From: a virus
Length of the DNA stretch: 41,161 nt
Direction: 5' to 3' (one strand)
IMG/VR virus record: IMGVR_UViG_3300046471_000236
Location: 1 to 41,161 of that record
The translations under genes were made by a program, and so were the position numbers. Positions 2,708 through 12,433 of this stretch are shown here, one piece after another. Every line of letters starts with the position of its first letter. Positions within the stretch are counted from its first letter, which is position 1. The notes beneath the pieces were generated by a model, which was not told the origin of the DNA, ran no database searches, and saw only the letters and a program-made list of their open reading frames with translations.

Positions 2708-3073
2708 TCACTCCTTCGCTAGGGCGGCTTGAATGGCGGCGCGCATCTCATCGACTAGCGTGGCGAACTTGGCCTGCGTCTCGTCGGCCCTCTTGTTTTG
2801 CGACCACGAGTCGCTGTCTGCCTGTTGCCAGTAGGTTTGGTCGAGTTGCCATGCACGACGAAGCGCCTTTGACACCATGTCCTCTACGTCGCCGGCATCA
2901 TCCACACGCATCGCGTATTGGGCGGCTAGGTGTGCGTCGATGGAGTCGGCCGAGGATTTAAATTTATCTCGATAGCGTGGATTAACCATATCCTGTGAGG
3001 CGCAGCGCAGCATGTGCGAAACCTGCTCTAGCGTCATCACATCACCCTTCGTCTCGTCGGTCATGTCAGTCAT
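2708..3073 (-). CDS. Hypothetical helical early phage protein
   Basis: 121 residues from the ATG at 3073, which overlaps the preceding stop by 8 bases. An alternative ATG at 3064 (118 residues) has a GGTGG at better spacing and may be the true start. The sequence is Ala/Asp/Gln rich and predicted mostly helical (LEQVSHMLRCASQDMV, RADETQAKFATLVDEMRAAI). No family recognised; cytoplasmic. Confidence 0.6.
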   Translation of the reverse strand: MTDMTDETKGDVMTLEQVSHMLRCASQDMVNPRYRDKFKSSADSIDAHLAAQYAMRVDDAGDVEDMVSKALRRAWQLDQTYWQQADSDSWSQNKRADETQAKFATLVDEMRAAIQAALAKE

Positions 3074-10221: not shown

Positions 10222-10535
10222 GCCGCCCACCGCCAGTCACTCTGCGAAAACGAGTGCATCGACATCAGCTCGATGGCGTCGGCAATGCGTGCCTTCGCCT
10301 TGCGATCCGTGATGCGACGGTTGACCGCCATGCGGCGCCAGAACCAACCCTCAAGCATCACCTCGTTGGTCGCGCGGCCCATGCCGCCCGGAACCTTCGA
10401 CACCTCTTCGTGCATCTGGTCGTTGAGGCGGCCGCGCTCGTAGTTCGAGGTGTACGGGTCTTTGATCGATGCCCACCAGGCGCGCTGTGCGCGGCGGGCG
10501 GCGTGGCGGAGCTTCTGGTAGGTATGGCGGTTCAT
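10218..10535 (-). CDS. Hypothetical basic early protein
   Basis: 105 residues; the ATG overlaps the upstream stop by four bases. The N-terminal part is strongly basic and aromatic (YQKLRHAARRAQRAWWASIKDP), and there is another basic stretch (WFWRRMAVNRRITDRKAKARI). A role in nucleic-acid contact is possible but unproven. Second gene of the leftward operon. Confidence 0.6.
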   Translation of the reverse strand: MNRHTYQKLRHAARRAQRAWWASIKDPYTSNYERGRLNDQMHEEVSKVPGGMGRATNEVMLEGWFWRRMAVNRRITDRKAKARIADAIELMSMHSFSQSDWRWAA

Positions 10536-10732
10536 GCGCGAGCCTGCTTGGCGGCTTCGCGCAGAGCGTCAGAGATGCGGTCGGCGTTCTCTGCATCCAT
10601 GGCGAGGTCGGTGGCCAGTTCGCCGCTACCAATAAAAAGGCCGAGCACCACAACACCAGGGCTCGCCTTGGCGTCCACACACACCGCGTCGGTGATGCGA
10701 ATCGCGTCCGATGACCAGGTTGGATTGTTCAT
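10532..10732 (-). CDS. First gene of the leftward operon, unknown function
   Basis: 66 residues; the ATG at 10732 has GGAG seven bases upstream. It sits about 30 bases after the predicted start of the leftward transcript, the place lambda uses for N. The product is not Arg-rich like N. It contains a hydrophobic centre (ASPGVVVLGLFIGSGELATDLAM) and a helical acidic end (AENADRISDALREAAKQA). No family recognised. An antitermination role is not supported by sequence. Confidence 0.65.
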   Translation of the reverse strand: MNNPTWSSDAIRITDAVCVDAKASPGVVVLGLFIGSGELATDLAMDAENADRISDALREAAKQARA

Positions 10733-10768: not shown

Positions 10769-10797
10769 AGATTAGCCACCAGCTAAACATCTGTCAA
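10769..10797 (-). promoter_or_regulatory. Predicted leftward early promoter (PL)
   Basis: On the minus strand a perfect -35 TTGACA (10797-10792) is followed after exactly 17 bases by TAATCT (10774-10769). The spacer contains a complete operator, and a second operator abuts the -35. Transcription would start near 10762 and lead directly into the leftward operon. Repression by CI/Cro binding is the obvious reading. Confidence 0.7.
10772..10786. promoter_or_regulatory. Operator OL1 (TTAGC-N5-GCTAA)
   Basis: Sequence TTAGCCACCAGCTAA, a perfect 5-bp inverted repeat around 5 bases, centred at 10779. It lies between the -35 and -10 of the leftward promoter and is identical in its half-sites to the operator at 11602-11616. 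Confidence 0.75.
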
Positions 10798-10811
10798 TAG
10801 CTATCAGCTAA
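10797..10811. promoter_or_regulatory. Operator OL2
   Basis: Sequence ATAGCTATCAGCTAA, centred at 10804, exactly 25 bp from OL1. One base differs from the consensus half-site. It touches the upstream edge of the -35 box. Confidence 0.65.
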
Positions 10812-10826
10812 ATATTTTCCAGACAC

Positions 10827-10848
10827 AAAAAAGCCCGCTGTGCGGGCT
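10827..10848 (-). terminator. Intrinsic terminator of the repressor transcript
   Basis: Read on the minus strand, AGCCCGC-ACA-GCGGGCT is followed by TTTTTT. It lies just after the small gene downstream of the repressor and before the leftward promoter, so it insulates repressor transcription from the early operon. Confidence 0.85.
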
Positions 10849-10860
10849 GTACCTCATCTC

Positions 10861-11061
10861 TTATCCGGCCTTCATGCCTGACAGATGTCTGCGCCTTTCC
10901 AGTGGTCGCAGTCGCGCAACTTCTTGACGGCTAGGCGTCAGGTTCTTGTCAGTCGCCAAGTTCTTGTCGCCCACCAGGGTGAGCTTAGCCTTTGTGCCGT
11001 ACTCGTCTGGCCACGTTTGCCGTGCGAGTGCCATTAGCCGGCACACCATCGTCTCGTCCAT
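10861..11061 (-). CDS. Small protein downstream of and overlapping the repressor
   Basis: 66 residues; ATG at 11061 with GGCGGAG upstream. It overlaps the repressor 3' end by 77 bases in another frame and ends just before the terminator at 10848. The sequence (MVCRLMALARQTWPDEYGTKAKLTLVGDKN) reads like protein, whereas the repressor frame in the overlap is Arg/Ala/Gly rich. It would be co-expressed with the repressor in the lysogen, so it could be an immunity accessory or anti-repressor-type partner. That is inference; no family recognised. Confidence 0.5.
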   Translation of the reverse strand: MDETMVCRLMALARQTWPDEYGTKAKLTLVGDKNLATDKNLTPSRQEVARLRPLERRRHLSGMKAG

Positions 11062-11542
11062 CTTTCTCCGCCCCTCGTGCCGTCATGATCGATGCGATCT
11101 TGCGTCCATGCTGGATCAACTCTTCGGTCGAAGGCTGGGCCGGCAACGCTGCTCGCAACTGGTACAACTGCACAAAGCGTGCCGCGTCCTCGGGATCTTC
11201 CAGGGACACAGGTAGCCCCAGTTCCTGCTTGAGTTTGCGCAAACTCTTGTGCGTCTCAGAGATCATGAGCGGGTCGAGTATCACGGGCTGCGAATCCTTA
11301 TTTGATCCGGTTGCCGGATCATCCCATTGCGGGCGATCCATCCATCCGTGGGCGTTCCTGGTGGCTGATTCAATCTTGCGCGCCACGTCATCGCCCATCT
11401 TCTTGCCGCCGACGAGCTGGCTTAGGAAGGAGGGCGCCATGTTCAGAGAGAGCGCTTGATCCTTCTGCAGGTTGATGCCACGCGCTTTCATGGCGTCAAC
11501 CAGGGCAAGGATGTTGCGGTGTCTGATTTCGGAGATGTCCAT
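10985..11542 (-). CDS. CI-like phage repressor without an S24 peptidase domain
   Basis: 185 residues from the ATG at 11542. Residues 1-75 form an XRE-type helix-turn-helix domain: RHRNILALVDAMKARGI, then MAPSFLSQLVGGKKMGDDVARKIE (recognition region), then GWMDRPQW. The rest is helical (SETHKSLRKLKQELGLP, EDAARFVQLYQLRAAL) and has no LexA/CI-type Ala-Gly cleavage site and no Ser/Lys dyad. It should bind the five operators around it to hold lysogeny. The predicted -10 box ends about 7 bases before the ATG, so the mRNA is probably leaderless, as lambda cI is from PRM. The last 25 or so residues overlap another gene. Confidence 0.85.
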   Translation of the reverse strand: MDISEIRHRNILALVDAMKARGINLQKDQALSLNMAPSFLSQLVGGKKMGDDVARKIESATRNAHGWMDRPQWDDPATGSNKDSQPVILDPLMISETHKSLRKLKQELGLPVSLEDPEDAARFVQLYQLRAALPAQPSTEELIQHGRKIASIMTARGAEKDGRDDGVPANGTRTANVARRVRHKG

Positions 11543-11548
11543 GGGCAA

Positions 11549-11554
11549 ATTGTA
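11549..11554 (-). promoter_or_regulatory. Predicted repressor promoter (PRM) -10 box
   Basis: On the minus strand TACAAT (11554-11549) matches the -10 consensus in five of six positions and lies directly at the edge of operator 11552-11566. No good -35 box is present 16-18 bases upstream, as expected of a promoter needing activation. Initiation about 7 bases later would fall at the repressor ATG (11542). Confidence 0.55.
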
Positions 11555-11566
11555 GCCAGCGGCTAA
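11552..11566. promoter_or_regulatory. Operator OR3 (repressor-proximal)
   Basis: Sequence GTAGCCAGCGGCTAA, centred at 11559, one base off consensus. It overlaps the repressor -10 box, so its occupation should shut off repressor synthesis. Confidence 0.7.
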
Positions 11567-11576
11567 TTCAGACTGT

Positions 11577-11591
11577 TTAGCTGGGGGCTTT
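11577..11591. promoter_or_regulatory. Operator OR2 (weak, one good half-site)
   Basis: Sequence TTAGCTGGGGGCTTT, centred at 11584. The left half matches perfectly and the right half loses its last two positions. The exact 25-bp spacing to both neighbours makes it credible despite the mismatch. Confidence 0.6.
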
Positions 11592-11618
11592 ACAACAGCA
11601 TTTAGCGCGTGGCTAAAT
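11589..11618 (+). promoter_or_regulatory. Possible rightward early promoter (PR)
   Basis: TTTACA (11589-11594) and CTAAAT (11613-11618) are 18 bases apart and flank operator OR1. Both boxes are imperfect. A start about 7 bases after the -10 would fall on the cro ATG (11625), which has no ribosome-binding site, so a leaderless transcript is likely. Confidence 0.4.
11602..11616. promoter_or_regulatory. Operator OR1 (cro-proximal)
   Basis: Sequence TTAGCGCGTGGCTAA, a perfect match to the consensus, centred at 11609. It overlaps the predicted -10 box of the rightward promoter and ends 9 bases before the cro ATG. Confidence 0.75.
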
Positions 11619-11624
11619 GTAGAC

Positions 11625-11885
11625 ATGCCCATCGAATCATTAGACAAAGCCATCGCCGTCCTTGGCAGCCAGGATGCCCTGGCCGACGCGCTCTTCATCA
11701 AGTCGCCGTCCATCAGTGGCTGGCGTGATCGTCAGCGCGTGCCCGCTGAGCGCTGCATCGCCATCGAGCTCGCCACAGGCGGCGTCGTTACTCGCTACCA
11801 GCTGCGCCCCGATGTGTTCGGCGCGGATCCGGTCAATCACTCGGCCAGCCAGCGCCAGAGCGCGGCGCGGAAGAGGGCGGCCTAA
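11625..11885 (+). CDS. cro: Cro-like transcriptional regulator (YdaS-type HTH)
   Basis: 86 residues. The segment IAVLGSQDALADALFIKSPSISGWRDRQRVPAERCIAIELATGG-VTRYQLRPDVF is the YdaS/Cro-type helix-turn-helix found opposite phage repressors in many proteobacterial prophages. It spans residues 8-65 and is followed by a basic Ala/Arg/Ser tail. It is the first rightward gene, divergent from the repressor across three operators, and should repress the repressor gene to commit to lytic growth. No Shine-Dalgarno is visible, and the ATG sits where the transcript should begin. Confidence 0.88.
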   Translation: MPIESLDKAIAVLGSQDALADALFIKSPSISGWRDRQRVPAERCIAIELATGGVVTRYQLRPDVFGADPVNHSASQRQSAARKRAA

Positions 11886-11981
11886 GTGCTCAGTCATATC
11901 AACGTCCTTGTCCGTGGTGTCCATGCCGACACCGTAGTGACGCAGCGCAACACCTTCCACGTTCGGAGCTACCAACCGTGA
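11886..11981 (+). CDS. Possible 31-residue protein between cro and the CII-like gene
   Basis: A GTG directly after the cro stop (TAA GTG) opens 31 codons ending in a TGA that overlaps the next GTG start (GTGA). The peptide (LSHINVLVRGVHADTVVTQR, then NTFHVRSYQP) alternates like two beta strands. It has no in-frame stop and abuts both neighbours exactly, so a coupled small gene is likely. Function unknown. Confidence 0.45.
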   Translation: MLSHINVLVRGVHADTVVTQRNTFHVRSYQP

Positions 11982-12433
11982 ACGTCATCGACGCAGCGCA
12001 CCGCACCATCCACGACTACCCCGGCGGCTCCGAGTCGCTTGGCCCGCGCATCGGCATGTCTGCCGCTGTGCTTCGCTCGAAGGTCAACCCGAACACCGCG
12101 ACGCACCACCTCACGCTTGGCGAGGCGGACCGCATCATGGGTGTGACCGGCGACCATCAAATCCTGCACGCGCTTGCCGCCAACCATGGCTTTGCACTGA
12201 CCAGCCTGGAAGGCGAGTGCGAGGACGTCTCGATCCTGACGAGCATCCTGCGCGTGACCAGCGCCGAGGGTGAGCTGGCGCGCGTGATCGACGCGGCACT
12301 CAAAGATGGCCGCATCAGCGCCAACGAAAAGGCCGACATCGAGGAAAGCGCGCTGCATGTCCAGCAGACGCTGGTCGCGATGGTTCATCGCATCGTGGGC
12401 AAGGACAGCGCGAAGCTTAAGGCGGTGGCGTGA
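11978..12433 (+). CDS. CII-like phage regulatory protein (Phage_CII/CP76 family)
   Basis: 151 residues, GTG start overlapping the small upstream frame. The N-terminal half (VIDAAHRTIHDYPGGSESLGPRIGMSAAVLRSKVNP, then HHLTLGEADRIMGVTGDHQILHALAANHGF) is characteristic of the phage regulatory CII family (PF06892). The rest is helical, probably for oligomerisation. It is expected to be a DNA-binding regulator influencing the lysis-lysogeny choice or early rightward transcription. Position right after cro matches lambda cII. No target site can be named from sequence. Confidence 0.88.
   Translation: MNVIDAAHRTIHDYPGGSESLGPRIGMSAAVLRSKVNPNTATHHLTLGEADRIMGVTGDHQILHALAANHGFALTSLEGECEDVSILTSILRVTSAEGELARVIDAALKDGRISANEKADIEESALHVQQTLVAMVHRIVGKDSAKLKAVA

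Follow-up and report, generated by a model that had tools for sequence, protein, structure and literature searches.

Analysis of the window, the whole 41,161-bp stretch of viral DNA examined here, indicated that five copies of the motif TTAGC-N5-GCTAA very likely constitute the operator set of a temperate phage whose lysogeny switch is of the lambda type, with two sites in a left group (OL) and three sites in a right group (OR). We assign them as immunity operators, as predicted from the DNA, because the window contains no other good copies of the motif and because the array is conserved together with one family of repressors.

Operator sites and overlapping promoters

Re-reading of the letters bore out the five positions given in the initial annotation (10772, 10797, 11552, 11577 and 11602), as well as the step of exactly 25 bp inside each group, which yields three such pairs. 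The proposed assignments in the switch region are as follows.

10532–10732, minus strand: first gene of the PL operon, 66 aa, with a GGAG ribosome-site-like sequence ahead of its start
10769–10797, minus strand: putative leftward promoter PL; -35 TTGACA (10797–10792), 17 bp, -10 TAATCT (10774–10769); kept in relatives
10772–10786, unstranded: OL1, perfect operator TTAGCCACCAGCTAA, overlapping the PL -10
10797–10811, unstranded: OL2, one mismatch, an A at 10797 that reads on the minus strand as the opening T of the PL -35
10832–10848, minus strand: terminator-like hairpin, 3' of the repressor gene and before OL
10985–11542, minus strand: lysogeny repressor, 185 aa, with an HTH N-terminus and without an S24 domain
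11542–11554, minus strand: putative repressor promoter PRM; -10 TACAAT (11554–11549), with transcription expected to begin at the repressor ATG
11552–11566, unstranded: OR3, one mismatch (at 11552), overlapping the PRM -10
11577–11591, unstranded: OR2, two mismatches (11590–11591), within the PR -35
11589–11618, plus strand: putative rightward promoter PR; -35 TTTACA (11589–11594), weak -10 in GCTAAAT (11612–11618)
11602–11616, unstranded: OR1, perfect operator TTAGCGCGTGGCTAA, over the PR -10
11625–11885, plus strand: Cro, 86 aa, YdaS / P22_Cro family
11978–12433, plus strand: CII-like regulator, Phage_CP76

The bare motif count is compatible with the view that the five sites are chance repeats: at up to two mismatches the window holds 9 matches, with 8.2 expected. 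At up to one mismatch, however, there are four matches, all of them array sites, against an expectation of 0.41, and none of 100 shuffles reached that number. Pairs exactly 25 bp apart, three in the window, averaged 0.0025 over 400 dinucleotide shuffles, and no shuffle had more than one. Given the exact spacing, the one-mismatch count and the conservation described below, we reject chance repeats as having practically no probability. The many copies elsewhere in the window that the initial annotation had named as a ground for doubt did not appear, as no stray copy lies outside the array at up to one mismatch.

The proposed overlap of the sites with the PL -35 and -10, the repressor -10 and the cro promoter was confirmed by position. 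A generic sigma-70 scan called none of PL, PRM and PR, and the promoters were therefore placed by hand from their positions and from conservation in relatives. In the class A alignment (the layout classes are defined below), the PR -35 of the relatives is TTGACA, and T-A-n-n-n-T is kept exactly 7 nt 5' of the repressor ATG in 25 class A phages. Since the expected PRM start is the A of the ATG (11542), the repressor mRNA is expected to be leaderless, as are the mRNAs of lambda cI and PY54 cI (PMC4488713).

In all three imperfect operators, the mismatches fall inside the promoter hexamer that the operator overlaps, and the same holds in relatives. Among 25 distinct class A phages, the outer half of OR2 is mostly TGTCAAGC, which is the PR -35 TTGACA reversed. 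Similarly, of 130 distinct OL pairs (oriented by their best -35 match), 111 have an OL2 ending in T, which gives GCTAT-TGAC, where the PL -35 begins. The initial annotation had counted two perfect sites, two sites with one mismatch and one site that had lost the end of a half-site; the counts stand and the end mismatches of the site at 11577 are real, but decay is not the best reading of them. Because the mismatches sit in promoter hexamers, in relatives too, the "lost" half-site more probably reflects a conserved trade-off in which one stretch of DNA serves both operator and promoter.

Gene context and proposed operation of the switch

The repressor matches phrog_12107, "transcriptional repressor" (E = 1.2e-15). 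It diverges from cro, and several operators lie between the two genes and overlap both promoters, while the second operator group lies over the leftward early promoter PL, an arrangement shared with lambda, in which a three-site OR likewise covers PR and PRM and OL covers PL. The cro start at 11625 has no obvious ribosome site. Leftward of the array lie small genes followed by genes for a Sak4-like annealing protein, SSB, a Cas4-type exonuclease, a helicase and an integrase; rightward, Cro and the CII-like CP76 protein are followed by a resolvase-like protein, a primase and, beyond these, packaging, head and tail genes. Among relatives whose host is named, the nearest come from Stenotrophomonas and Dokdonella, and the host is therefore probably a member of the Xanthomonadales. 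The distance from the repressor end to OL is about 175 bp in the window, including the terminator, compared with 0.7–1.3 kb in relatives, where unrelated accessory genes occupy the gap (loci L005, L006, L010, L011, L014 and L019).

In the proposed switch, repressor dimers would fill the adjacent sites OL1 and OL2, and likewise OR1 and OR2, each pair being spaced by 25 bp. Filling of the OL pair would shut PL and keep the recombination and integration genes off, and filling of the OR pair would shut PR and keep cro, the CII-like gene and replication off. OR3, over the repressor's own -10, could provide autoregulation and a handle for Cro. We infer which protein binds, in what order and how cooperatively, and the same applies to activation of the repressor's own promoter and to possible OL–OR looping.

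A domain search gave no S24 match in the 185-aa repressor. Because the repressor lacks this autocleavage domain, the window phage is probably induced not by self-cleavage but through an antirepressor or a similar partner, as are the Gifsy repressors (GfoR), which are released by antirepressors and do not cleave themselves (PMC3121763), and SPC32H Rep, which is antirepressor-controlled and not self-cleaving (PMC9986798). SPC32H Rep is also the best PDB fold match to the window repressor (Foldseek probability 1.00, E = 0.02, about 78 residues), and a profile comparison also matches it weakly within the HTH domain (E = 0.0098), the similarity being statistically modest and confined to the DNA-binding domain. 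No antirepressor was identified in the 41,161-bp window. In the model of the window repressor, the C-terminal half reaches medium confidence at best and the tail is disordered, and for this reason no function is read from that half.

Conservation of the array and of the repressor domain

A search with the repressor protein alone as query returned 13 viral and two genome loci. All 15 relatives have an OL pair, and in all of them the OR array keeps the register seen in the window. With the repressor ATG set at 3001, their OR sites fall at 2926/7, about 2951/2 and 2976/7; the middle site is degenerate, with three mismatches in several relatives, and the OL pair lies 1.2–1.9 kb past the repressor start. 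The constant register to the repressor start supports the earlier proposal of a layout resembling lambda OL/OR built on a different operator. The scan of related prophages that had been suggested also found the operator, in 15 of 15 relatives and in well over 100 contigs by pattern alone. In IMG/VR, 57 stretches carry the OR pair, whose 50-bp spacing is fixed by the pattern, and at least 119 carry the OL pair, compared with 4 when the OL pattern is read backwards as a control. The OL pattern permitted spacings of 21–29 bp, and over all loci the 130 distinct OL pairs are 25 bp apart in 90 cases, 27 bp in 24, 26 bp in 10, 24 bp in 4 and otherwise spaced in 2. Named phages with the array include Stenotrophomonas phage S1, Pseudomonas aeruginosa AUS531phi and Ostro, and Klebsiella KO-TP1. 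Judged from these sequence comparisons, the operator is a property of a large family and not peculiar to the window phage. One contig (L149:972-10500) contains about 20 near-matches to the motif, many of them 7 bp apart; this is a repeat family mimicking the operator sequence and not an immunity array.

More than 80 distinct N-termini of array-adjacent repressors share one HTH domain, in which the recognition segment ends in S-Q or N-Q and is followed in most cases by a GW(M/F/L)D motif. The motif tracks this one domain across phages of Stenotrophomonas, Pseudomonas and Klebsiella, hosts whose LexA boxes differ, which argues against the sites being host LexA (SOS) boxes, with host LexA and no phage repressor controlling the early promoters. 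The TTAG and CTAA ends are indeed shared with the Xanthomonas LexA1 box, TTAGTARTAATACTAA, and with no S24 domain in the repressor, SOS control must enter another way. The motif is, however, 15 bp long rather than 16 bp, its inner C and G are conserved, and the sites keep a fixed register to the repressor start. Host LexA boxes, which we consider extremely unlikely, were set aside on the ground that the sites accompany the repressor domain in phages of several hosts.

Three layouts were distinguished among the phages that carry the operators. In class A, to which the window belongs, the repressor ATG lies 9–10 bp after OR3 and the sites are spaced 25+25; in class C, the ATG lies 11–14 bp after OR3 with sites at about 24+24; in class B, found in Pseudomonas and enteric phages, the ATG lies 19–20 bp after OR3 and the middle site is displaced. 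The class B repressor start is 10 bp, or one helical turn, farther from OR3, and in four class B loci (L081, L163, L191 and L198) the middle operator is closer to OR3 (16 bp) than to OR1 (about 33 bp).

Where related repressors have altered recognition regions, altered operators occur at the same places, of the TTATC type in mEp506 and of the TGTAC type in Solano and LESphi3, with first-to-third spacings of 49–51 bp. This covariation bears on whether Cro or the CII-like protein, and not the 185-aa repressor, is the main protein on the sites. Cro shares the operators of the repressor in lambda-type switches and may do so here, but the operator sequence tracks the repressor domain, whereas the Cro-side proteins of the relatives belong to different PHROG families; we regard main binding by Cro or the CII-like protein as very unlikely and retain the repressor as the probable principal ligand. 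The loci at which repressors with related N-termini have other operator letters near the repressor start, with similar geometry, are L190, L193, L194, L196 and L200; besides the TTATC type of mEp506, they show a GTACC/TGTAC type in Solano, LESphi3, Hafnia yong2 and Edwardsiella EPP-1.

The C-terminal parts of these repressors vary. Scored by a simple G-x-S-M motif, all 52 class B repressors have the S24 active site, as do 3 of 27 in class A and 6 of 14 in class C; for selected examples a Pfam S24 match confirmed the domain. Three close relatives of the window repressor (L010, L013 and L033) carry G-x-S-M, with a Pfam S24 match for L010. The repressor at L005:3001-3654 has a weak S24 match, below the cut-off, and no G-x-S-M; it seems to combine these operators with an S24 domain that has decayed and no longer cleaves. 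The L081 repressor joins a P22 c2-like C-terminal domain (77% identity, residues 73–225) to a DNA-binding domain of the TTAGC type. We put forward, as a proposal about equally likely to hold or to fail, that one HTH module and a 3+2 array are nearly fixed in phages of Xanthomonadales, Pseudomonas, Burkholderia and enteric hosts, and that the C-terminal "induction" part has been swapped repeatedly (S24, decayed S24 or short helical).

Relation to known switches and implications

Lambda operators are spaced by about 23–24 bp, similar to the 25 bp of the window, and an apparently leaderless repressor mRNA is a further shared feature. Unlike lambda, the window has a TTAGC-N5-GCTAA operator, an OL group that the window scan found to comprise only two sites instead of three, an OL–OR distance of only 0.83 kb from centre to centre, a repressor without a self-cleaving C-terminal domain and an all-helical Cro of the YdaS/P22 type. 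Phage 933W has three OR and two OL sites. The immB region of N15, with its CB repressor, shares the 3+2 site count and the divergent cB and cro genes (PMC4488713), but its OL sites control repA, whereas the OL of the window would control a recombination operon. The N15 operator sequence probably differs from that of the window.

The gp44 region of Stenotrophomonas phage S1 encodes a homologous repressor (171 aa aligned at 38% identity) and carries an OL pair as well as OR sites of which the first and third are 50 bp apart; it differs in the 27-bp spacing of the OL pair and in extra genes between repressor and OL, and the operators are unannotated in the S1 record. Burkholderia phage KS9 encodes a short related repressor, gp41 (133 aa), proven to be the repressor by gene inactivation (Lynch 2010, as cited in PMC8310193), next to a sister array spanning 49 bp from first to third site, which supports the immunity reading of the window array; KS9 has the operator variant TTAGCG... 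and belongs to a different subclass.

No paper describing the TTAGC-N5-GCTAA operator was found in a literature search that reached a minority of subscription journals, and searches on phage S1, on Pseudomonas CI operators and on profile-matching solved CI/Cro chains returned nothing relevant. The 3+2 layout is already known from N15, and the window is a well-defined example of a known switch type, with an operator sequence for which we found no published description. It supplies a full and clear-cut set of operators for phages that have received little study. TTAGC-N5-GCTAA at 25-bp steps is a signature by which the switch can be located in many prophages that lack annotation, and from which immunity groups can be predicted; the operator-letter variants with related N-termini could help in working out a code of operator recognition. 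Of greater interest is the exchange of C-terminal parts while the operators stay fixed, which would amount to a natural experiment in which induction is rewired and immunity is left untouched. If such repeated swapping is real, phages in different hosts, or co-resident prophages, could share immunity and differ in their trigger.
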